Assembly: GCF_019375555.1 (NCBI RefSeq)
Contig: NZ_JAHXDN010000003.1
Location: forward strand, 186,001-250,000
DNA from: Roseobacter insulae
Lineage (GTDB): Bacteria > Pseudomonadota > Alphaproteobacteria > Rhodobacterales > Rhodobacteraceae
DNA length: 64,000 nucleotides
Direction of reading: 5' to 3'
Positions 51,370 through 63,459 of this stretch are shown here, piece by piece. The notes beneath the pieces are model-generated. The model saw only the letters and a program-made list of their open reading frames with translations, was not told the DNA's origin and made no database searches. A program made the translations under genes and the position numbers. Position 1 is the first letter of the stretch, and each line of letters starts with the position of its first letter.

Positions 51370-52032
51370 TCACCTCAAGGTCTGCATGAACTTGAAGCTC
51401 ATGCCGTCACGTAGGAATTTCGACTGGCGCCCGGTCTGGACGCTGTCAGGCACGATCACCGCCTTGCAATGGGCGCGTCCAAGCGTCACGGCAGCGTCAA
51501 TAACGGCACCCGGCTCCAGCGGCGGGATCACTTCGAAGAGCGGTGTTGTGCCAGCGCCATCTGCCAGCACCTGCGTCTCCTGGACGCGGTGCAGCCCGTA
51601 GCGCAGCGGGTTGCTGCCATAGGTGAAGGAAAGATAATCGCCCCGGGTGAGCGCGTAGCCCGGCGTCAGCCCCTTGAGGCTGATCAGCCGCGCGTCGCCG
51701 CCGTCGAGCGCCGCGATCTGCGGGCTGGCACCGGCGATGATCGATCCGGTGGGATCCTGGCGGGGATGGGGAAACCGCGTGTGGTACGCGAGAAACGAGG
51801 CTCCGGCCCCGCGCATCAGGTCGATCAGCGCCTGTGCATCGAGCGCCTCATAAGGCAACAGCCTGCCCAGCATGACCTCGCCCTGCCAAAGCCGTGTGCC
51901 GATATCCTCGGGCAGGATTTCGCCGCCAGCAGTGCGGCTCGTCTGAACGGCCTCCGGCAGGTCAAACTCAACCGATTTGACCGGCAGGGCGTCCAGAAAC
52001 TCCGCGATGCTCATGGGGAAGGACACCGGCAT
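51370..52032 (-). CDS. Phage distal tail protein-like
   Basis: A 220-residue protein, MPVSFPMSIAEFLDALPVKS onward, beta-rich, with GTRLWQGEVMLGRLLPYEA and a C-terminal FLRDGMSFKFMQTLR. It directly follows the tape measure gene (start overlaps its stop), the usual place of gpM or distal tail protein. Homology not recognised beyond that. Confidence 0.65.
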   Translation of the reverse strand: MPVSFPMSIAEFLDALPVKSVEFDLPEAVQTSRTAGGEILPEDIGTRLWQGEVMLGRLLPYEALDAQALIDLMRGAGASFLAYHTRFPHPRQDPTGSIIAGASPQIAALDGGDARLISLKGLTPGYALTRGDYLSFTYGSNPLRYGLHRVQETQVLADGAGTTPLFEVIPPLEPGAVIDAAVTLGRAHCKAVIVPDSVQTGRQSKFLRDGMSFKFMQTLR

Positions 52033-54062
52033 TATCCGCGCCTCCTTGGGTTCTCGTTGATCTGGCCAACGCGACCCGGCAGGGTCTCGCGGTCATACTC
52101 CTCGATGGCAGCCTGCATGCCCCGGTACGCGGCCTCCTCGATCTCTCGATCGCCGCGCGCGCCGGACACATCGATCGCCACCTGCAGCGGTGGTCGGCTG
52201 TCATTTGCCGATTGCAGCAGACGGGAGACATTGCCCCCCACGGGACCGCCATTTGCGAAGGCTCCGATCGGGCCTCCGGCGTTCATAATCTCCAGAATTG
52301 GGCGGTAGCGCGCCGTGGCGGCCGCGTTCATCATGAACTCGCCGTTGGACCCCCACATCAGCACCCGGTCATCCTTGGGACCACCCGGCCCAAACACAGG
52401 GCCACCCTCGGCCCGCGCCGGGATCAGGGAGGGGAAGATCGCGCCGATCAAACCACCGCCACCGCCGCCGAAGGGGCCGGTGCCGAGCAGCTGGCCCTGA
52501 ATGGCGGCGTCCAGAATGGTGGTGCCAAGGTTGCGCACCACATCCGTCAGGCTCTTGCTCTTGTCGAAGATGTCATCGAGCACGCCGGTGGCGCTGCGGC
52601 CCATCAGATCCCAGGCGGCCTGTTTGCGCTCGACGGCCAGCGTCTCGGCGTCGTGCTCGCGGATCAGCCCCTCGATCGTCGCGCGTTCTGCTTCCGTGGC
52701 CGATGCCAGGGTCTCGCGGTTGCGGATGATCTCGCGCTGGATCGGATCGGTCTCGCGCAGGATCGCCAGCTCGTCGCGCAGGCTTTGGGTCAGGTTCTTG
52801 ACTGCCTCGCGTTGACGCTCGGCACCGCCGGTGTCTGGCTTTTTTGCCGTGCGGCGATTGATCGCAATCACACCGTTTTCGCCAACCTGACCGAAATTCG
52901 TGCGCTCCCGGACTTTGGCGCGGGCCTGATCCGGACCGCCTGGAGCGGCCAGATCGGACAGCGCCACCATGCCCTGCGCCACGCGCAGGCTTACGCCGAG
53001 ATCCTGTGCGAGCGCAGCTGCCGCCGCTGCCGCCGCCTCGACACCGCCGGACATCTCCACCCCGGAGAAATCCCCGCCCGCCCGGTAGGCCTCGAGCAGC
53101 TGACGGCTCAGCGCTTCCGCCTCGGATCGGGACCGGACATAGAGGCTGTTCTGGTTGTCCAGCTTGCGGGCGATGATCTCCTCGCCCTCGACGCGGGACC
53201 GGACGTAGAACCTGTAGGCATTGCTGATCCGGTTCAGTCGGGCCTGCTCCTTTGCAAGACTTGCTTCCGCTCTGTCCAGCGTTGCCAGCTTTTCGCGCCA
53301 CGCATCGATTTGCTTGTCCAGCTGTTGGACGGTTGCACCCTGAGCCTCATTCTCGCGCAGGGGCACAATGGCGGCAAGCTGCTGGACTTCCAGCCTCTCG
53401 CGCTCGAGCCGGTTGATTTCACGCTGGATCGTCAGCCGTTCCGTGCTGGCAATTCCGGTCTGAAGCAAGGCCAGTTTCTGCTGGCTGTCGACTGTCTGGC
53501 TTTCCAGCTCGGCCAGCGCGTCCTTCAGGCTGTCAACGTCCTTTTCCGCACCGCGTGCCGAGGTGGCATACTGAAAAAGGGCCGCTCCCGCCGCGATGGT
53601 ACCGATGGTGATCAGGTTGATCGGGCTGACAAGTGACACGAAGGCCGCCTTCAGCGCCTTGACAGCACCGCGTGCCCCCAGCGGGCCGAGTACCTGCGAA
53701 ATCTGCGTACCCTGCTGGAGGGCGAGCTGGATGGGGTTCTGCCCCGCCGCCATCATGACGCCAAGGTCGTTGTACTGGGCAAAGAGGTTGCCGACGCTGC
53801 CCGCCGCGAGCTGGTTGGACGTCGCCAGCCTGCGCGCCTCGAGCGAGGCCCCGAGCTTGGCGGTTTTCAGCTTGGTCATCTTGGCCGCAGCCAGATCGGC
53901 CTGTCCGGAGAATGTTTTCAGTTGCGCGCCGCTGGCCTTCCACGCATCACCGATGGTGAAGGCGGCGGTTTTCGTGACCTGAATTTCATTACGCAGCCCG
54001 GCAAACTCCGAGAGCGCCTGCTTGGCGTTGGCGGTCAGCACCATGGACAGCTTGATAGCCAC
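52032..54062 (-). CDS. Tail length tape measure protein
   Basis: A 676-residue lambda-family tape measure protein. It starts with GTG at 54062 (AIKLSMVLTANAKQALSEFA) after GGAGAGAG. Long alpha-helical and coiled-coil stretches dominate (about 200-330 and 410-500), with a hydrophobic segment near 143-165 (VSLVSPINLITIGTIAAGAA). NQLAAGSVGNLFAQYNDLGV and GQNPIQLALQQGTQI are typical of TMP_2 proteins. It sets tail length and is ejected with the DNA. It follows the G/GT gene pair, the standard arrangement. Confidence 0.9.
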   Translation of the reverse strand: MAIKLSMVLTANAKQALSEFAGLRNEIQVTKTAAFTIGDAWKASGAQLKTFSGQADLAAAKMTKLKTAKLGASLEARRLATSNQLAAGSVGNLFAQYNDLGVMMAAGQNPIQLALQQGTQISQVLGPLGARGAVKALKAAFVSLVSPINLITIGTIAAGAALFQYATSARGAEKDVDSLKDALAELESQTVDSQQKLALLQTGIASTERLTIQREINRLERERLEVQQLAAIVPLRENEAQGATVQQLDKQIDAWREKLATLDRAEASLAKEQARLNRISNAYRFYVRSRVEGEEIIARKLDNQNSLYVRSRSEAEALSRQLLEAYRAGGDFSGVEMSGGVEAAAAAAAALAQDLGVSLRVAQGMVALSDLAAPGGPDQARAKVRERTNFGQVGENGVIAINRRTAKKPDTGGAERQREAVKNLTQSLRDELAILRETDPIQREIIRNRETLASATEAERATIEGLIREHDAETLAVERKQAAWDLMGRSATGVLDDIFDKSKSLTDVVRNLGTTILDAAIQGQLLGTGPFGGGGGGLIGAIFPSLIPARAEGGPVFGPGGPKDDRVLMWGSNGEFMMNAAATARYRPILEIMNAGGPIGAFANGGPVGGNVSRLLQSANDSRPPLQVAIDVSGARGDREIEEAAYRGMQAAIEEYDRETLPGRVGQINENPRRRG

Positions 54063-54425
54063 TCAACTCTCTCCGTTCATTGCGGCGCGCGCGCCGATTT
54101 CGATCATCTGCAGATCAGACCAGAGCGCGGGCGATGGTTTGATCCGTGCCAGTTTCAACCCGTCCCGCACGCCGGCGTAGTCGAGGCCCACCGCGTGCAT
54201 CGGGCCGTCCGCCCGCGCCACGATGCGCCACTGCGTGCAGACCGCGAGGTAGGCCATCACCGCGTCCACGTTCTCCGGCCAGACACCCGCGTCTTCGCGC
54301 TCCAGCATCTGCGGGGGCAGGACGATCCCCCATTTCTCCGCGTCGGTCCGGGCATTGTCCGCAGGCTGATCGGCGGGCCTCTCCGAGAGCGTGCCGAGGA
54401 CGGAGGCGCGCCCGGCCCATTTCAG
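54063..54425 (-). CDS. Tail chaperone T part, expressed by -1 frameshift (DUF1799)
   Basis: The reading frame after the G gene. It has a DUF1799-like core, GVWPENVDAVMAYLAVCTQWR. No ATG, GTG or TTG occurs before the ATG at 54308, yet the frame is open back through the G stop codon, reading LKWAGRASVLGTLSERPADQ and so on for 39 codons. That is what a lambda T domain reached by ribosomal frameshift looks like. Slipping at GGGAAAC gives a 230-residue GT fusion (110 + 120). GT proteins bridge the tape measure and tail tube subunits during assembly. Confidence 0.8.
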   Translation of the reverse strand: MKWAGRASVLGTLSERPADQPADNARTDAEKWGIVLPPQMLEREDAGVWPENVDAVMAYLAVCTQWRIVARADGPMHAVGLDYAGVRDGLKLARIKPSPALWSDLQMIEIGARAAMNGES

Positions 54426-54754
54426 TTTCCCGCGCGGGCCTTGGCGACGGCGGCGGCATATGTGTTGATCATCGCCAGTCGCGCGCCGTAGTTGCCGATC
54501 ATCGTGTTGAGCAGCTCAGGGCTAAAGGGCAGGGCCTTGCCGTCGTCATCCTGAATGTCGCTCAGGTCGACCACGGTGGTGCGCAGGAACTCGGCCATAT
54601 CCTCACCGTTCATGCCAAGATCGAACTGCTCGACGGTCTCGGCAGGCTGCACCTTGAACCGCGCGCGGAAGCTGTCCTCTCGGTGCCCGTCATCGATGGG
54701 GGTCAGCACTTTCACTTCAGCCCAGAATTTCGGCTCTTTCTCAATCTTGAACAT
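54422..54754 (-). CDS. Tail assembly chaperone (lambda G-like)
   Basis: A 110-residue protein, MFKIEKEPKFWAEVKVLTPI onward, ending AKARAGN. It lies between the tail tube gene and the tape measure gene, the position of lambda gpG. The last two codons, GGA AAC, with the G before them form GGGAAAC immediately ahead of TGA. AGAAGGAA precedes the ATG. It should coat the tape measure protein until the tube polymerises. Confidence 0.82.
   Translation of the reverse strand: MFKIEKEPKFWAEVKVLTPIDDGHREDSFRARFKVQPAETVEQFDLGMNGEDMAEFLRTTVVDLSDIQDDDGKALPFSPELLNTMIGNYGARLAMINTYAAAVAKARAGN
54425..54431 (-). promoter_or_regulatory. Programmed -1 ribosomal frameshift site GGGAAAC
   Basis: In the G frame the codons are GCG GGA AAC TGA. 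G-GGA-AAC fits the X-XXY-YYZ slippery pattern, and the stop codon follows at once. After a -1 slip the next codons are CTG AAA TGG, entering the open T frame. Lambda's G-T site is the near-identical G-GGA-AAG. Confidence 0.8.
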
Positions 54755-54769
54755 CGGCAGTGTTCCTTC

Positions 54770-55696
54770 TCAGGTCAGGGTAAGGGTCCACTGGTCATTG
54801 CCAGCGTTGGTGCGGGGGACGAGGCGCAGGGGCCATTCGGTGATATTCTGGGGCTTCTCCAGCCCTTGGGGGCGTTGCATCTGCGCCAGAGGCACCGCGA
54901 TTGTCGCGACCTTGCCCGCGCCAACACCGTGTTGGAGGTTGATGGCGACGTCATTCGCGTTGAAGGCTGCCGAATAAGGATCGAAGGTGGCCAGCGGAAC
55001 CGCCTGGATCGTACATTCGATCTGCTCGGACTTGCCCGTGATCAGAACTTCCTCCGGTCCGATCAGAAACCGGTTCTCGACCGCGTTACCAAGGTCCATC
55101 ATGAAGCTGCGGGTCACCAGCGTTGTGCCACCCAGGGTCAGATCCGTGAAGGCCTTGCTGACCTGCTGCGGTTTCTGCCATGTCGAGAAATCAGGCGTGG
55201 GCCTCACCGCCGCTGCGGGCAGCGCGAACAAGCCGGTGAACTCGAACATGATGTGCGGGATGTTCTGCGCGTTCAGTTCGAACTTGGCGTTGCCGCGCGC
55301 GCCCAGCAGAGCGTGCAGCGTGTCGCCGATGAAAAAGTGGATGGTCAGGCTCTCCGGGTCGCGGGTGATCGGATTGTAGGTCACCGAGGTGCCTGGCACG
55401 ACGGTTTCCGCCACACCGCAGCCGCGCAGCAACGGCCCCCATGGCGGGGGTGTTCCCGCCGTGCCCGACGGTGCAAGCTCGACCTTGAAACTCAGCGTGG
55501 AATGCAGCTCGACCGGAATTGTGCCCTGCGACCCGAAGTAGGGCAGCTCCAGTTCCCGGTCCAGGTCGTTGCCTTCCATCGGTGTCAGGCTGACTTCCTT
55601 GGCATAGATTGCCTGTGACCCGGTCGGAACGGCGTCAACACCGTATGTGCCCTCGATCGCTGCGGCGAGGATCTTGTCTTCCCAAAATTCGGCCAT
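54770..55696 (-). CDS. Phage major tail tube protein
   Basis: A 308-residue protein starting MAEFWEDKILAAAIEGTYGV, as in major tail proteins of transposable siphoviruses. It is beta-rich, with FGSQGTIPVELHSTLSFKVE and a C-terminal Ig-like-sized extension (TEWPLRLVPRTNAGNDQWTL). It sits directly before the G/GT chaperone genes, the standard place of the tube protein. Confidence 0.82.
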   Translation of the reverse strand: MAEFWEDKILAAAIEGTYGVDAVPTGSQAIYAKEVSLTPMEGNDLDRELELPYFGSQGTIPVELHSTLSFKVELAPSGTAGTPPPWGPLLRGCGVAETVVPGTSVTYNPITRDPESLTIHFFIGDTLHALLGARGNAKFELNAQNIPHIMFEFTGLFALPAAAVRPTPDFSTWQKPQQVSKAFTDLTLGGTTLVTRSFMMDLGNAVENRFLIGPEEVLITGKSEQIECTIQAVPLATFDPYSAAFNANDVAINLQHGVGAGKVATIAVPLAQMQRPQGLEKPQNITEWPLRLVPRTNAGNDQWTLTLT

Positions 55697-56738: not shown

Positions 56739-57407
56739 TCAGTTGGTGCTTTGCGCTTTCCGGACGTCGACCTTCACGGCCAGTGACGGCTCCGCTTCCA
56801 GGGCGGCAAGCTGGCGCTGGGTCAGCTCATTGGCTGGAATGACAACGGGAGTTGCGTCGAACTTGCGCCCGGCGCGCCAGAAGCCTTTCTCCGGGCCGGT
56901 CACAGTGACCTCGAGGTCATCCGGGCCGGGCTGGTCGAGCGGGTCGGGCATCGGGTCACGTGTCTCGCCAAGACCATCCCAGATCACGGCCTGACCGGGC
57001 TTTTCGAATGCCGTTTCAAGCCGGTTCGAAAGCGCCTCGACAAGTTCGAGCAGCGCGCCGTGCCGTTCCACGAGCGCGACATGGGCGTCTTGCAGCGCAT
57101 CGACCTGGTTCTCGAGGGCGGCGATCCGTTCCGCCGCCCCCGCGTCGCTCTGCACGGGAGAATGGTTGTCGGACGCAGGTCCGGACGATGCCGATCCTGC
57201 CGGTCCTGCGTCCTGATCCGTTGCCTTTTCAGGCGCGGGGGTCTTGGCCTCGGGCGCGGGTTTCGCGTCCTTGGCGTTGTGGGGTGCGGAGGCGGGTGTG
57301 TCACCCGCCTCCTTTTGCGTCACAGTGTCAGCCTGTCGCTGATCTTCGGTCGACGCCTGCTCGGGCTCCTTGCCCTTGGTATTGGTGGTTTTCTTGCGCG
57401 GTGCCAT
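56739..57407 (-). CDS. Mu gp35-like protein (HI1506-related)
   Basis: A 222-residue protein in two parts. The first 95 residues are disordered and rich in Lys, Ala, Pro, Glu and Asp; a short coiled coil (AALENQVDALQDAHVALVE) follows. The C-terminal part, VTGPEKGFWRAGRKFDATPV to QRQLAALEAEPSLAVKV, matches the HI1506/gp35 family of Mu-like phages. It may be a minor capsid-associated protein. A small stem-loop (GGGCGG, CCGCCC) lies between it and the gp36-like gene at 56714-56729. Confidence 0.75.
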   Translation of the reverse strand: MAPRKKTTNTKGKEPEQASTEDQRQADTVTQKEAGDTPASAPHNAKDAKPAPEAKTPAPEKATDQDAGPAGSASSGPASDNHSPVQSDAGAAERIAALENQVDALQDAHVALVERHGALLELVEALSNRLETAFEKPGQAVIWDGLGETRDPMPDPLDQPGPDDLEVTVTGPEKGFWRAGRKFDATPVVIPANELTQRQLAALEAEPSLAVKVDVRKAQSTN

Positions 57408-57432
57408 GAACGGCCCTCCGGGGGTTGGTGTC

Positions 57433-57507
57433 TGGTGGCGGGGGCGGGGATCGAACCCGCGACCTTCAGGTTATAAGCCTGACGAGCTAGCTCTGCTCCA
57501 CCCCGCT
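57433..57507 (-). tRNA. Initiator-like tRNA with UAU anticodon, in prophage
   Basis: A 75-nt cloverleaf including encoded CCA (57435-57433). Acceptor AGCGGGG / CCCCGCC, D stem GAGC/GCTC, anticodon arm TCAGG-CTTATAA-CCTGA, T arm GCGGG-TTCGATC-CCCGC. The anticodon is TAT (57475-57473), nominally Ile for AUA. Two initiator-tRNA marks are kept: an unpaired 1-72 position (A and C) and A11-U24. The third mark, three G-C pairs in the anticodon stem, is reduced (A29-U41). The 7-nt D loop lacks the GG pair that normally contacts the T loop. It lies between gpT and the gp35-like gene. Confidence 0.75.
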
Positions 57508-57516
57508 GCGGTGTCT

Positions 57517-58407
57517 TTAGAGCCAGTCGGCCAGCATCAGCTTGGCGGTGCCCTTCCACTTGTTGGTAGCGCCGTTCGCCTGCCGCTCGGAGTTCAGCAA
57601 CTCAATCGCTGCACCCTCGAGCTGCTGCGGCACAACCAGCAGCTTGCCGCGCAGGCCCAGCTTGCGGCCATGATCGCCCGTCATCGTGCCGATCGCGACA
57701 CGCGCGGCCTCATAGTTCTCGGGGGTCAGTGGCTGCTGTGAGCCATAGGCCATCTGCCAGAAGCCATAGCCCGTGTTGTTGCGACCATCGACGCCGTAGA
57801 GGAATTCCTTGTTGTGGAAAACAGACGGGTCATTGACGTTATCCACTGCCACAAACTGCGGAGCTTCGCGGTCCTGGTAGATGACTGGCTTGATTGCCCG
57901 GCTGTCGTCCATCAGGAACCACGCGGGACCGGTGCCGCCGCCGGTGTTCGAAACCGTGATGATGCTGCCATCGTCGGCAATTACCGGGTGATCGGTGTCG
58001 AAGAAATACTGGCCATCATAGCAGCGCTGATCAAAGCCGCCCGCCAGGGCACCAAAGCACTGCTGGTCAGGATGCGCGCCCGTGGCCCGTCCCATCTCGG
58101 TAAAGAGTGGATTGTAGATCCCGAGATTGTCGTCCTTGATGTGATTTCGCTGGACGCGGACGGTCAGTTCGAAATCCTTGTTCTTGACCGTGTACTCATG
58201 TTCCATCAGCGCCTGGAGCTGGCGGGGGCCGATCCACTCGCGCATGTTGGGCAGGCTGCCGAGCCATCCGTAGGTGTTTTCGCTGGTGGTCGAAGGAACC
58301 ACAGTGGCAATCGCGGCGTACTGGCTTTCGACCTGTGACAGACCCGCCTGATAGAGCGCACTGAAGCCGGTGCGGAGGCCTTGAAGTGTTTCTCTTGTGA
58401 CTAGCAT
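57517..58407 (-). CDS. Mu-like major head protein gpT
   Basis: A 296-residue major capsid protein. Family signatures are TRETLQGLRTGFSALYQAGL, the conserved TTSENTYGWLGSLPNMREW, and YEAARVAIGTMTGDHGRKLG with LLVVPQQLEGAA. It forms the head shell. Start ATG 58407; an 11-base gap separates it from the decoration protein gene. Confidence 0.93.
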   Translation of the reverse strand: MLVTRETLQGLRTGFSALYQAGLSQVESQYAAIATVVPSTTSENTYGWLGSLPNMREWIGPRQLQALMEHEYTVKNKDFELTVRVQRNHIKDDNLGIYNPLFTEMGRATGAHPDQQCFGALAGGFDQRCYDGQYFFDTDHPVIADDGSIITVSNTGGGTGPAWFLMDDSRAIKPVIYQDREAPQFVAVDNVNDPSVFHNKEFLYGVDGRNNTGYGFWQMAYGSQQPLTPENYEAARVAIGTMTGDHGRKLGLRGKLLVVPQQLEGAAIELLNSERQANGATNKWKGTAKLMLADWL

Positions 58408-58418
58408 GGAGTTGCTCC

Positions 58419-58856
58419 TTACGCCGCTGCGGCTTTGGTGAGGGCTTCGTCGAGGCGGACCCAGACGCCACGTGCGTCGAGGCCTTCGATCACGCCAGCG
58501 GGGGACCGGGTGGCCGTGGCATCGGTCTTGGCGACCGTCTGGTCATCGACCGCATAGGCCACCGCGCCGATGTCGGCGGCGGTGATTTCATCCGCGCCCG
58601 CCGAATTTGCGAAAGAGTAGCAACCAGTGCGGTATTCGATGTTCACATCGCCATCGGCACCGCCAGCGTTGCTCACATCCGCATGACCAACACCGACACC
58701 TACCAGTCCGGTGGCGGTCTGGCCGTTGGTGATGAAGCCCGCAGCGTTGCGCATGAGCAATGCGCCGACGAAGAGGACAGCGGTTGCGGCAACAGCGCCC
58801 TGGCGCAGGTCACCTTCGATGCGGGGGGTCGTACGCCCTTTGGTCAGAGCCACCAT
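58419..58856 (-). CDS. Capsid decoration-like protein
   Basis: A 145-residue protein, MVALTKGRTTPRIEGDLRQG, rich in Ala, Gly, Val and Thr, with ITAADIGAVAYAVDDQTVAK and SPAGVIEGLDARGVWVRLDE. The size, composition and place between the protease/scaffold and the major head protein fit DUF2190-like or D-like decoration proteins. Probably stabilises the capsid surface. Confidence 0.72.
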   Translation of the reverse strand: MVALTKGRTTPRIEGDLRQGAVAATAVLFVGALLMRNAAGFITNGQTATGLVGVGVGHADVSNAGGADGDVNIEYRTGCYSFANSAGADEITAADIGAVAYAVDDQTVAKTDATATRSPAGVIEGLDARGVWVRLDEALTKAAAA

Positions 58857-59465
58857 TTAGGAAGCCTCCTTGTTTTCGGATTGCAGGGATTTCGCATAGG
58901 CCTCTTCGGTGAGGCCAAGCTGGCTGGCGATAAGGCGCTGATCGGCATTGAGCGAGACCTCGCCATCCTTCGGCGCGGGCGGCTCGAGGGTGGTGGCCGT
59001 TTTGCCCAGCTTGGGCAACGCGGCAATCAGAGCGGCGGCGTTTTCGGGATCTGCCTGATGCAGGGCAATCCACTTGTCCTTGGAGGCCTCGTTGACGCCC
59101 GCGCGGCGCTCGGCCAGCGCGGTCTGAAAGAAGCTCTCGGAGGCGGCGTCGGACTGACCTTCCTGCAGCGATGTGACGGTCGCGCTCAGCTCGGTCACGG
59201 TCGAGGTCAGCGCGGCGTTGCTGGCCTGAAGGGCTGCGATGGTTTTGTCGTCGCTCTTCGTCGCGGCCTGGGCGGCGGCGACAATCGCATCGGGCTTGGC
59301 GTCGGCCTCAAGGCCCAGGGCAACGCCCACCTCGCCAAGCGCGGACTGCATTGCGGCATCGCTGCCCTTGCCCTTCATCTTGGCCGAAAGGGCTTTCATG
59401 ATGTCATCATCCGATGACGCGGCATCGATGCTGAGCATCTCGATCAGTTTTTCGCGGAAGTTCAT
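58857..59465 (-). CDS. Nested scaffold protein (Mu gpZ-like), internal start
   Basis: An in-frame internal ATG at 59465 is preceded by AGGAGA at ideal spacing (AGGAGACCGGG-ATG) and begins MNFREKLIEMLSIDAASSDD. The 202-residue product is the helical scaffold part of the protease gene. Mu (I/Z) and lambda (C/Nu3) make their scaffolds from the same kind of nested gene. Independent translation is inferred from the ribosome binding site. Confidence 0.75.
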   Translation of the reverse strand: MNFREKLIEMLSIDAASSDDDIMKALSAKMKGKGSDAAMQSALGEVGVALGLEADAKPDAIVAAAQAATKSDDKTIAALQASNAALTSTVTELSATVTSLQEGQSDAASESFFQTALAERRAGVNEASKDKWIALHQADPENAAALIAALPKLGKTATTLEPPAPKDGEVSLNADQRLIASQLGLTEEAYAKSLQSENKEAS

Positions 59466-59957
59466 CCCGGTCTCCTGTTGGTGAAGCGAGGTCATGCCCC
59501 GCAGGTTTGGTTTGTTCACAAGGCTGGCGCGCAGGATCGCTTGAATGGTTTTCGGGCCATTCTTCGGATGCACGATGACCGGGCTGATCCCGCGATAGGC
59601 ACGCGAGGTGACCAGTTCAGCGCCCTGCGTTGTCCACTCCACCTGACCCCAAATCCCGTCGGGGCGGGCTTCCATCGCGACAATCCAGCCGCGCGCCGGA
59701 GCAGGCTGGCCGCTTGGGGCCGCAAGATCGGTGGCGTGGTTTTCGTCAATGGGCAGCCTGTCATCGACTGCAAAACTTGCAGCGATGATCTGGTCCGGGT
59801 TCGTTACATGGTAGGGACCTCGCGCATCGGACGTTCCGATCACACCAGCCTCACCCGCCGGAAGCAGGTGGATCCATTCAGGAGCCGCATTTTCCGCTAC
59901 CGTGTCCGGCAGGGATTGCGCACTCATCAGGGCTGTGAGGTGATCGGCAAGTGTCAT
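58857..59957 (-). CDS. Phage head maturation protease with C-terminal scaffold (Mu gpI)
   Basis: A 366-residue protein of the Mu I family. The N-terminal ~155 residues are the protease: LLPAGEAGVIGTSDARGPY, the His-containing PIDENHATDLAAPSGQPAPA, GWIVAMEARPDGIWGQVEWT and YRGISPVI. The C-terminal ~200 residues are a helical scaffold that can also start internally at 59465. Start ATG 59957; the longer reading adds 12 residues without better support. The protease cleaves scaffold and itself during head assembly. Confidence 0.87.
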   Translation of the reverse strand: MTLADHLTALMSAQSLPDTVAENAAPEWIHLLPAGEAGVIGTSDARGPYHVTNPDQIIAASFAVDDRLPIDENHATDLAAPSGQPAPARGWIVAMEARPDGIWGQVEWTTQGAELVTSRAYRGISPVIVHPKNGPKTIQAILRASLVNKPNLRGMTSLHQQETGMNFREKLIEMLSIDAASSDDDIMKALSAKMKGKGSDAAMQSALGEVGVALGLEADAKPDAIVAAAQAATKSDDKTIAALQASNAALTSTVTELSATVTSLQEGQSDAASESFFQTALAERRAGVNEASKDKWIALHQADPENAAALIAALPKLGKTATTLEPPAPKDGEVSLNADQRLIASQLGLTEEAYAKSLQSENKEAS

Positions 59958-59983
59958 GCCGCATTTCTGCCGGATTGGCCGAT

Positions 59984-60012
59984 CGCAAAACATCCGCGCA
60001 ATTGCGCGGATG
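59984..60012 (-). terminator. Perfect palindrome with T-run, likely terminator
   Basis: A perfect 22-bp palindrome at 59991-60012 gives a 9-bp stem (CATCCGCGC/GCGCGGATG) with an AATT loop, followed on the minus strand by TTTT. It lies between gpG and the protease gene, inside the late operon, so it may reduce or punctuate late transcription. Confidence 0.6.
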
Positions 60013-60061
60013 CCAGGGGCAACGATCTCGGGTGCACGTTAGGCGGTGTCCGCAGGCGGGG

Positions 60062-60562
60062 TCAATCCTCCGCCGCTTCTTCCAGCCATTCCTCGACCGT
60101 TGCGACGATCGCGGCGCGATCACTGCTCGATATCCCGACGAACGGTCGGGCCGGAATTCTCCCCCATGGGATCGGACTGCCGCGCGATGTCGTGCCAAAG
60201 GCACCCTTGGCCGCACCGAAGTGCATGACGGCAGCCTGTATCTTGTTGGTCCCGATCACCAGCTGATCGCGTCCTGCGTCATGAAAGAAGCTCCGGCGCA
60301 GGGGCAGGGTGTCCAGGTTAGGCCCGTGCAACGGCCTGGGATCCACGGACAACCCCTGCCGGATGTAGTTGTCGATCGTGGCCTGCGATTTCGGTGCCCA
60401 GGGAATGCCTTCCGGAGACACGCCCTCGTCAAACCGCTTCTCGGTGCTGTCCTCCAGCAGATCCCCCAGCACTTCGAAGACCGGCGTCATATCTGACAGA
60501 CGGGCGCTCAGCTCTGAGAGAGCGGCTTCGACCTCGGCATCATTGAATTTGACGTCAACCAT
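60062..60562 (-). CDS. Phage virion morphogenesis protein (Mu gpG)
   Basis: A 166-residue Mu gpG-family protein: MVDVKFNDAEVEAALSELSA, EDSTEKRFDEGVSPEGIPWA and SPIPWGRIPARPFVGISSSD. The family ARPFLG-like motif is present as ARPFVG. It is involved in tail completion or head-tail joining. Start ATG 60562 with AAAGGA upstream; 124 bases separate it from F. Confidence 0.87.
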   Translation of the reverse strand: MVDVKFNDAEVEAALSELSARLSDMTPVFEVLGDLLEDSTEKRFDEGVSPEGIPWAPKSQATIDNYIRQGLSVDPRPLHGPNLDTLPLRRSFFHDAGRDQLVIGTNKIQAAVMHFGAAKGAFGTTSRGSPIPWGRIPARPFVGISSSDRAAIVATVEEWLEEAAED

Positions 60563-60686
60563 CTCTATGATCCTTTCCTGCAGACGTGACACGGTGATAT
60601 TCTGCCTGCCGTAGCCTGATCCACGGGTCTGAGCGTTTTGCGGGGTTTCCGGGAAACCGGCTGGCAGGCCCCGCCGTCTGCATCCT

Positions 60687-61841
60687 TCACTCGGACTTGT
60701 TGATGAACTGGCGCACCTTGCGGTCCCGGTCACGATCTTTCCGCGAGAGCTTCAGGTAACTCAGCACAAAGAGCTCGTCCTGCTCGACCACCGCCTTGAC
60801 GACGAGGATCTGGCCACCGCCTTCAGGATCCTCATGGATGAAGACGCGGCGGTTGGAGCCCTGAGACAGTTTCCGGGTGGCCTTGTCGACGGCACGCTGG
60901 ATCAGCTTGTAATCCGCCACCGTCAGATCGGGGTGATTGCGGAGTTGCTTTGCCACCGTGTCAGGCGACAACACAGCGGTTCGGGTCCGGACCTTCAGGG
61001 CCTCGGCGTCGGCCCTGGCGATCCGGGCAACCGGCCACTTGCCGACGGGGTTGGCAAACCAGCTCTCAAAGGCGCGGCCCTGCAGCCAGTCCTGGATAAG
61101 ATCGATCGCGGGTCGGGACGGGAGCTGATCGACTTTGGGCTTCAGCGCGCGGATCGTATCATCCACCGTCGCCCCCGGCGCGTAGTCCCAGCCCTTGTCG
61201 ATCCCAACGGGAGCACCTGTGCGCGGATCCCGCGTCGCCCAGTCCGGCGGCAAGGTCACGTCGGGCTTGCCACCCACCCGGATCGCCCCGGCAAGGGTGC
61301 GGGCACCACGCACGAAACAGGCGCAGCCCCAGCCATTGATCGGGTAGTGGGTCTTCCAGAAGGGGTGATCCACCGGCAGGATCAGCCCGTCCCAGCCCAG
61401 ATGCTCAGGCCGGTAGTTCTCCGCGCCTGAGTGGCGGTAGACGAGGTACCTGAATGCCCCGCTGAAGTGCTGGGCGTAGCGGCCTGCCGCACGGGTGGTC
61501 GCCAGATTGGTGCGATAGATGACCTTGGTGCGCCATGCCTCGCCCCTGGCCGTGCCTTCGCCGGTCCAGCCGTGCCAGCCGCGTGTCTCCACGATCTGGC
61601 GGAAGTCGCGCCGGAACTCCTCCAGCGAGGTGCCCTCAGAGATTGCCTTGTCGACGGCGGCTCCCAGATCGGCGAGCAGGTCGGCCTTGGTCGCCCCGGC
61701 CACCATGAAGGCGCGGTCATGCTGGGCGCGGCTGATGTCGTCCCAGCGCGACGTGGGCACCAGATCCCCGAGGCGCAGCCTGAAGGCCGCAACCTGCTCC
61801 TTGAAGGGTTGCCGGAAAACCGCGCTGATCGGCTCAGCCAT
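60687..61841 (-). CDS. Minor head protein F with C-terminal PBECR-like nuclease domain
   Basis: A 384-residue protein in two parts. Residues 1-240 are the Mu F/SPP1 gp7-like minor head protein: KVIYRTNLATTRAAGRYAQH, LPVDHPFWKTHYPINGWGCAC. The region from about 268 to 368 (KWPVARIARADAEALKV, VLSPDTVAKQLRNHPDL, DYKLIQRAV, RRVFIHEDPEGGGQILVVKA, LFVLSYLKLSR) resembles the PBECR family (phage-Barnase-EndoU-ColicinE5/D-RelE-like nucleases) known at the end of such head proteins. It may enter the cell with the DNA. It overlaps the portal gene by eight bases. Confidence 0.87.
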   Translation of the reverse strand: MAEPISAVFRQPFKEQVAAFRLRLGDLVPTSRWDDISRAQHDRAFMVAGATKADLLADLGAAVDKAISEGTSLEEFRRDFRQIVETRGWHGWTGEGTARGEAWRTKVIYRTNLATTRAAGRYAQHFSGAFRYLVYRHSGAENYRPEHLGWDGLILPVDHPFWKTHYPINGWGCACFVRGARTLAGAIRVGGKPDVTLPPDWATRDPRTGAPVGIDKGWDYAPGATVDDTIRALKPKVDQLPSRPAIDLIQDWLQGRAFESWFANPVGKWPVARIARADAEALKVRTRTAVLSPDTVAKQLRNHPDLTVADYKLIQRAVDKATRKLSQGSNRRVFIHEDPEGGGQILVVKAVVEQDELFVLSYLKLSRKDRDRDRKVRQFINKSE

Positions 61842-63459
61842 CGCCGACCTGCGCGCGGCCTCCGGCCTCAGCGGCGATCATCGCGTCGGCCAGCACTTCG
61901 CCGAAGGCCGAAGCATCGAGTTCGGGGTAGGCGGCGAGCCACATTTCACGCACCTCGGCGAGCGACCCGGCCTGCGACATCATCAGCTCCAGTTGCTCGA
62001 CCATTGCCTGCATGATGGGGGCGGCGTCCTCATCGAGAAGATCGGCCAGTTCGTCGTCAAGGCTCGTGCGCCTGAGCGCCCCTCTCAGCGCCGTTGAAGC
62101 CTGTAGCGCCTCGTTGCCCGAGAGATCGTCCAGCGGCTTTTCTACCCGTTTAAGAATTGGCCTGCGGCGTTTAAATCCATCACCCGGATTTGCATCTGCT
62201 GGTTTCTCGGGGGAAACGGTCAGAATTTCCTCTTTTTCGTCTGGCTCCTCGATGTTCAGGCGCTTGTAGAGACCCTTGGTTCCGACGCGCAGGCCGAGCG
62301 GCACGACCTTGACCAGCGCGCTGGTCAGCGCCTGGATGTCTTCAGGCTCAGGTCGAGCAATCGAGAGGACCGGGTAATCCTGCTGCGGGCCATACTCGAG
62401 ATCCACGAAGGGACGTACCAGATCGCGGTTGATGATGGCCGAGAGCGCGCAGGCGTCCGCCTTCTCGATGTCTTCCTGCACCTCGCGATGCTCCTTGCCG
62501 GAGCCAAGCCCGCCGGTTTCGGCGTCCGTTGTGGCCGTCTGTCCCAGCACCGCCTTGGAGATCTGCTTGTCGAGCCAGTCAGCGCGGCGTTCGTAGTGGT
62601 CCGTGCTGGCCCCGACGTTCGAGCTTTCGATGAACTCGATCATCATGCTGTCGGGAATGATGGCGGCGCAATCGCCCGCAATCTCAGACACGGCCCGGAA
62701 AAGCGTGTCCTTGTCCGCCTCCGACGCGCCCGCGCCCCATTTGCCGACGCGCAGGGGTTGGCCATAGGTTTGTGTGAATATCGCCCAGTCACGCTCGGTG
62801 TAGGCTTTGAACATCCAGTTGAACATCGCGACGCGCGCCAGTCCGGAGCGCAGTGCCAGCCCCGATTTGGCTTTCATCTGGGCGAAGATGAACTTGAAGG
62901 CGGGCAGCGGAAGTTCCTGCCCGTTCTCGTCCAGCATCATCGGCGTGGCCAGATCGGACCGGTCAAACCGGAACCAGCGCGGGTCGCGCCATTCAAGCCG
63001 CGCGGGACGCCACTGGCTCATGGAGGTTTCCCAGATGACCTCGGTAAAGCTGTAGCCCTTGCCGATCGCGTCCAAAATATCGAAAAGCTCCAGTGCCAGC
63101 TCCTTGCGGGTCAGCCACTTCCGAATGCTCTCAGCGATCCGCTCGTCCTCCGCGCTGTCGGTTGCGGGTTCGACGGTGATGTCGAGCTGGCTCACGGACC
63201 GGCGGCGGGTGCCCAGCACGCCGAGGTAGTGCGGATTGCGCTCCTCGATCGTCTCAGCCAGCTCCAGGTACCGGACCGGATCACCGCGATCCGCCGCGCG
63301 CAGGATCTCCGCCAGCCGCACCGGGTTCAGCCCTTCACCGGGGTAGCTGGTGATAGGCGATCGCACGCCACCCAGCGTCGGGGCGGCGACCTCCTTCTTC
63401 AGCTCGCCCCGGCGCATAGGATTGCCGAAGCGGTCGTAGATTACGGGTTTATTGGCCAT
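61834..63459 (-). CDS. Phage portal protein, Mu gp29/DUF935 family
   Basis: A 541-residue portal protein: ERNPHYLGVLGTRRRSVSQL, EVIWETSMSQWRPARLEWRD, FIFAQMKAKSGLALRSGLAR, YTERDWAIFTQTYGQPLRVG, and AVLGQTATTDAETGGLGSGK are characteristic of DUF935. It forms the dodecameric ring through which DNA is packaged. The C-terminal 150 residues are acidic and probably face the head interior or connector. Confidence 0.93.
   Translation of the reverse strand: MANKPVIYDRFGNPMRRGELKKEVAAPTLGGVRSPITSYPGEGLNPVRLAEILRAADRGDPVRYLELAETIEERNPHYLGVLGTRRRSVSQLDITVEPATDSAEDERIAESIRKWLTRKELALELFDILDAIGKGYSFTEVIWETSMSQWRPARLEWRDPRWFRFDRSDLATPMMLDENGQELPLPAFKFIFAQMKAKSGLALRSGLARVAMFNWMFKAYTERDWAIFTQTYGQPLRVGKWGAGASEADKDTLFRAVSEIAGDCAAIIPDSMMIEFIESSNVGASTDHYERRADWLDKQISKAVLGQTATTDAETGGLGSGKEHREVQEDIEKADACALSAIINRDLVRPFVDLEYGPQQDYPVLSIARPEPEDIQALTSALVKVVPLGLRVGTKGLYKRLNIEEPDEKEEILTVSPEKPADANPGDGFKRRRPILKRVEKPLDDLSGNEALQASTALRGALRRTSLDDELADLLDEDAAPIMQAMVEQLELMMSQAGSLAEVREMWLAAYPELDASAFGEVLADAMIAAEAGGRAQVGDG

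Follow-up and report, generated by a model that had tools for sequence, protein, structure and literature searches.

In bacteriophage lambda, the short product of gene G (gpG) and the longer product of a -1 frameshift (gpGT) have roles as tail assembly chaperones (PMC5009743, available portion). These chaperones are absent from the mature lambda particle. The same portion of that source notes G_GGA_AAC and A_AAA_AAC in haloarchaeal viruses. A frameshift has already been predicted for Burkholderia phage KL1, in which GGGAAAC directly precedes TGA (excerpt of PMC3483164), and 7% frameshifting has been measured for a chaperone cluster resembling an HK97 protein (excerpt of PMC3711429).

We analyzed a 64,000-nt stretch of Roseobacter insulae DNA (referred to here as the window), in which two overlapping frames are located between the gene in the tail-tube position and the tape measure gene. 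The tail module is ordered on the minus strand as tail terminator, tail-tube-position protein, G, -1 frame, and tape measure. Its relevant features are as follows.

54770..55696, minus strand: immediate 5' neighbor of G, occupying the tail-tube position (phrog_290, E=4.4e-23; the family is named "minor tail protein")
54422..54754, minus strand: G, predicted tail assembly chaperone, zero frame, 110 aa (phrog_569, E=1.3e-16)
54439..54442, minus strand: weak Shine-Dalgarno-like AAGG, -11 to -8 from the heptamer, a position favored in the family
54425..54431, minus strand: slippery heptamer G_GGA_AAC adjoining the G stop, read from the sequence; at the corresponding position, 326 of 342 distinct frames carry X XXA AAC/T
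54063..54431, minus strand: -1 frame between the slip and its TGA, predicted to encode the T part of GT (phrog_680, E=3.7e-20)
54393..54416, minus strand: candidate stimulatory hairpin, six contiguous pairs (one G-U), starting 8 nt past the heptamer and homologous to that of relatives (alignment A4)
54081..54299, minus strand: DUF1799 (PF08809), residues 45-117 of the -1 frame (Pfam, E=4.6e-11, 43.2 bits)
52032..54062, minus strand: tail tape measure protein, GTG start directly past the GT stop (PF06791, E=2.8e-14)

G starts with ATG and ends with the codons GCC CGC GCG GGA AAC, followed by TGA (54424..54422). The original prediction, made from the letters of the window, had placed GGGAAAC next to the G stop, and the heptamer indeed lies at 54431..54425, adjoining that TGA. 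From the slip, the -1 frame begins with CTG (54425..54423) and runs for 120 codons to a TGA at 54065..54063; a ribosome shift would thus yield a predicted G-T fusion of 230 aa (110 + 120). The length of 120 codons agrees with the prediction, but the frame does not open exactly at the slip as proposed: the whole open stretch comprises 150 codons and starts approximately 28 codons 5' of the heptamer, where it also lacks a usual start. Correctly anticipated were the lack of a usual start in the first 39 codons (the earliest ATG, GTG, or TTG past the slip is the ATG at 54308, codon 40) and the DUF1799-like domain, whose Pfam match passes the cutoff of 26 bits and lies past the junction. The tail tube and tape measure neighbors stand in lambda order, again as predicted, with the tube role assigned by position only. 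G had no match above the Pfam cutoff.

The protein encoded at 54770..55696 had no Pfam match, and its position suggests a tail-tube role. The AlphaFold2 models were of high predicted quality (pLDDT of 95.2 for G and 91.1 for the T part). Neither model matched anything in the PDB at E<=0.001. Against BFVD, the G model had three matches at E<=0.001, all to unnamed viral models, and weak ones (E of 0.046 to 0.058) to models annotated as "tape measure chaperone." Gene order, the PHROG tail families, and the predicted G fold with its weak matches point to the chaperone identity of the pair. Both phrog_569 and phrog_680, as well as some records (NC_020839 and NC_020866), label the G or T part as "tail length tape measure protein," a name that seems to have been carried over in error from the neighboring gene. 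Elsewhere in the window (56739-63459), a Mu-like head module (portal, F, I protease, and gpT) is joined to a tail module resembling those of RC1 and vB_ThpS-P1, two phages that PMC5488378 (available portion) describes as siphoviruses.

We consider it highly probable (about 94%) that a programmed -1 ribosomal frameshift makes two predicted tail assembly chaperones from one gene. The majority of ribosomes would reach the TGA of G and release the 110-aa protein, while a minority would slip back one base on G_GGA_AAC, with GGA re-pairing on GGG and AAC on AAA. The slipped ribosomes would decode CTG as leucine and continue past the stop for 120 residues that include DUF1799; the resulting GT fusion of 230 aa would carry the sequence ARAGN-LKWAGR across its junction. 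If the division of labor is that of lambda, G would bind the tape measure protein, and the tail tube subunit would be recruited by the T part. The occurrence of the shift, its frequency, and the chaperone functions are inferred; the frequency may be low, because in E. coli slippage at A_AAA_AAC is weaker than at A_AAA_AAG (PMC5009743, available portion).

Relatives were collected from phage records, viral contigs, and bacterial genomes. Among phage records, 17 had a match; vB_ThpS-P1, RC1, and RS1 matched over 98% of the query, and cyanophages, Serratia phages, and Pseudomonas phages matched over 61 to 75%. Nine of the 17 were taken for reading of the site (RC1 and RS1 are identical here), and all nine had GGGAAAC or AAAAAAC adjoining the G stop, which is TAG in phage PS-1 and TAA in Medea1. 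Viral-contig relatives came from several searches, three of which contributed at most 80 of 533, of 171, and of 118 relatives. Bacterial-genome relatives comprised seven loci from one set and others found with the Pfam DUF1799 model, which matched in 17 of 295, 30 of 398, and 16 of 289 genomes (the window's genome and a few others being counted repeatedly); nine Pfam-model matches were left out of the locus set. An iterated HMM built from nine proteins identified 397 frames in 396 sequences (395 loci plus the copy in the window), and removal of 55 duplicates resulted in 342 distinct DUF1799 frames. Codon, start, and RNA statistics refer to 106 clusters (70% identity) of the 326 heptamer-bearing entries only.

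X XXA AAC/T was present at the equivalent place in 326 of the 342 distinct frames and adjoined the G stop in 313. A first pass gave 310 touching sites (200 AAAAAAC, 109 GGGAAAC, and 1 AAAAAAT), with TGA as the stop in 237, TAA in 44, and TAG in 29; three further touching sites (L113, L389, and L392) were found among the remaining 32 frames. One additional locus (L063) has A AAA AAG with the G stop 18 nt on, which raises the conserved count to 327 of 342. Conservation of the heptamer and of both frames among homologs, which had been named as a way to check the prediction, is therefore borne out. Within the Pfam-model subset, 60 of 63 loci carried the heptamer (the window's own, L001, included), the other three being L063, L030 (an identical duplicate of L014 and L088), and L070 (below the cutoff).

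The heptamer is not universal, because 12 relatives (L139, L143-L151, L154, and L157) keep both frames intact without a canonical one. These have GCA AAA GTT or GTC and then TAA (i.e., GCAAAAG in place of the heptamer) and are closely related, with DNA 88 to 100% identical to that of L150 over 260 nt. The original prediction had taken intact frames without a slippery site as evidence against it; such frames exist in this close group and in part count against it, but the site of the window is canonical. The GCAAAAG group possibly uses a single-tRNA A_AAA slip or another solution. The other three frames without a canonical site are L070 (a sub-threshold match), L359 (a contig end), and L128, in which nine consecutive A at the junction (approximately 2340-2400) leave the G and DUF1799 frames out of register, possibly as a result of sequencing error or transcription slippage. 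A different kind of variation was observed in 13 loci (L129-L132, L135, L136, L142, and L152; L035 and L029; L045, L061, and L069), which keep the heptamer with the stop 9 to 54 nt on.

Chance is a poor account of these sites, because among 2,949 other distinct mechanical ORFs (>=100 aa, both strands of the same DNA) only 7 had any XXXYYYZ adjoining the stop (3 of them XXXAAAZ), and one of the seven was the published site of the KL1 G gene. Codon choice was also skewed at the heptamer. The -1 frame lysine was AAA in all 106 clusters, compared with 644 AAG and 373 AAA in the rest of the same genes, and the glycine codon was GGA in the 50 GGGAAAC clusters, while GGA was the rarest glycine codon elsewhere in G (21 of 362). 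The constant AAA and GGA point to the slip itself, in a comparison for which the clusters had been selected for carrying the heptamer. The first -1 codon past the slip in the 326 entries was CTG in 237, CTA in 75 (stop TAA or TAG), CTC in 13, and TTG in 1. AAC followed by a stop always gives CTR, and hence leucine in the -1 frame, because all stops start with T and continue with A or G; the TTG of the single AAAAAAT-TGA case is also leucine. K2 and L3 are invariant in the segment before the DUF1799 domain (alignment A2). The leucine of this KL pair may itself be under selection, so slipperiness need not be the only reason for the C of the heptamer.

We assessed RNA structure in the 55 nt beginning 5 nt past the heptamer. 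This region was more stable than dinucleotide shuffles across the 106 clusters, at a mean z of -1.58, with 57% below -1.5, while three control regions gave means of -0.03, -0.49, and -0.15. Against synonymous-codon shuffles (same frame; nt 10-60 counted from the heptamer start), the mean z was -1.3, with 42% of the clusters below -1.5 and none above +1.5; the controls gave -0.36 and -0.09, and a paired t test against the first gave p=4e-7 for clusters that are not fully independent. The longest helix began 5 to 7 nt past the heptamer in 54 of the 106 clusters. The hairpin of the window itself was no more stable than shuffles (z of +1.4 for dinucleotide and +0.13 for synonymous shuffles), and the stimulators of the window are therefore only plausible. 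No Rfam match at E<=1 was obtained for 54200-54800 of the window.

Covariation of the hairpin was weak in sets of 19 and 18 sequences, which were drawn from the 326 entries on the basis of junction motifs and made nonredundant at 90% identity. Pairs changed on both sides numbered 2 of 9 and 1 of 8, a level reached by 285 and 490 of 500 shuffles; little covariation is possible in the 19-sequence set because in the core pairs the partner of a wobble base is mostly a fixed G. The number of paired cells and the covariation score were attained by 1 and 11 of 500 shuffles in one set and by 66 and 48 of 500 in the set of the window. Upstream of the heptamer, the signal was weaker than that of the hairpin: Shine-Dalgarno-like 4-mers starting at -19 to -9 were present in 41 of the 106 clusters, with a peak of 25 at -11, versus 6 and 12 in two bins upstream and 9 in a bin downstream. 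Part of this excess may be an amino acid preference, and the position of the AAGG in the window is at most suggestive of an upstream stimulatory element. Together with the conserved heptamer, junction, and frames, the hairpin signal of the family supports the original judgment that recoding is very likely.

The T part could instead be made as a separate protein, either by ribosomes that terminate at TGA and reinitiate on the CTG that overlaps it (CTGA) or from a start within the frame. The RC1 and RS1 records begin the second gene at that CTG, which is the codon found in 237 of the 326 entries. A restart has no need of a heptamer, however, and it cannot explain the heptamer because 88 of the 326 entries have CTA (75) or CTC (13, with the stop 9 to 54 nt on) there, neither being a usual start; the one TTG is a possible start. 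The Shine-Dalgarno-like peak, approximately 13 nt from the CTG, is also further away than is usual for a start. We rejected the CTG restart as the main route, since the CTA and CTC entries keep the heptamer, and regard it as very improbable for the window. An own start at the ATG at 54308 would give an 81-aa DUF1799 protein; the corresponding ORF (54063..54308) is present in the window, and vB_ThpS-P1 is annotated with such an internal start. This protein would lack the segment before the domain that holds the invariant K2 and L3, and no Shine-Dalgarno sequence was seen by eye upstream of 54308. Nor does the downstream frame have a conserved own start in the 90 of 106 clusters that could be scored: between the heptamer and the TQW motif, 9 of the 90 had no start and 16 had one within 12 codons, with the median first start (in clusters having one) at codon 27. 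In 23 of the 90, a start lies upstream of the heptamer within the open -1 frame, and an own start is possible there. Because starts are found at no fixed place, the internal ATG was rejected as the main route, and we give it as little credence as the CTG restart. The six A of the AAAAAAC members and the nine A and broken register of L128 would fit a sequencing error, gene decay, or slippage of transcription along an A run, but the site of the window has three A only and 106 clusters show the same arrangement, which leaves this explanation a negligible probability.

A variant of the frameshift explanation, with the same peptide either way, is that most slippage happens as the ribosome pauses at the touching stop and not as a tandem slip with AAC in the A site. 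The stop touches the heptamer in 313 of the 326 entries, compared with a distance of 15 nt in lambda and an average distance of 26 nt for the training-set sites of SEA-PHAGES (PMC10885494, available portion). Against this, the 13 relatives with distant stops retain the heptamer; all three stops are used; and the base past the stop is not fixed (A in 33, T in 32, C in 24, and G in 11 of 100 clusters). Leucine after lysine is moreover satisfied by any CTN, so placing a stop there also ends G at little cost. We therefore hold this variant to be possible but rather unlikely. Equally tentative is the idea that DUF1799 pairs carry a composite termination-coupled signal, consisting of a Shine-Dalgarno-like element, X_XXA_AAC, the stop as the next codon, and a hairpin 5 to 7 nt on. 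If it were true, the touching stop would raise slippage at an AAC-ending heptamer that is otherwise weak in bacteria, and the GT:G ratio would be tied to release factor activity. The loci with displaced stops provide a natural means of testing what the touching stop contributes, and the family offers several hundred natural sites at which to ask whether an adjacent stop aids -1 frameshifting in bacteria.

Under the programmed frameshift that we favor, DUF1799 is most likely the T portion that frameshifting adds to one member of a tail chaperone pair. Several records present it as a separate gene, as a hypothetical protein, or under the name "tape measure." X XXA AAC adjoining the G stop could serve as an annotation rule for such pairs. 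The encoding of the DUF1799 family by a frameshift with a touching stop and hairpin seems to be unreported in the open-access literature searched, where we found no statement of DUF1799 as frameshift encoded; most subscription papers (e.g., Xu 2004) were outside this scope. The available text of an open-access paper naming DUF1799 lists it as a separate gene and does not use "frameshift." The word is likewise absent from the available text of the vB_ThpS-P1 genome and virion proteomics paper (PMC5488378) and of a survey of alphaproteobacterial phages (PMC10783043), and in that of PMC8541194 it occurs once, within the reference list.

The proposed mechanism is the known one of lambda G/GT, and GGGAAAC touching a stop had been predicted for KL1; what is new is the family-wide pattern, not the kind of mechanism. 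The locus resembles lambda in its place between tail tube and tape measure, the GGGAAA core, the -1 direction of the predicted shift, and a predicted short and long product. The original prediction had set lambda's G-GGA-AAG at the same place; GGGAAAG does occupy the equivalent place, but it ends in G and not C, and the lambda G stop lies 15 nt downstream and does not touch the heptamer. E. coli dnaX similarly combines a slip heptamer with a downstream stem-loop and an upstream Shine-Dalgarno-like element (PMC5009743, available portion), but it uses A_AAA_AAG at about 50% and its shifted product is the shorter one (excerpt of PMC3711429). The pre-tape measure chaperones of phiCbK and Colossus have the slip sites AAAAAAC and GGGAAAC, as printed in the available portion of PMC3556154. 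Serratia phage vB_SmaS-Smarc2 has a DUF1799-type pair with AAAAAAC adjoining TGA, annotated as a joined "pre-tape measure frameshift protein," but infects another host and is only approximately 34% identical over the matched part. KL1 (gp18/gp19; locus L397, 1250-1621) shares GGGAAAC immediately 5' of the G-gene TGA and GKL at the junction. It differs in a T part without the TQW...GLDY motif (by eye) and in an extra gene between the T part and the tape measure. The likeness of its junction suggests either a shared ancestor or a rule shared across T families.
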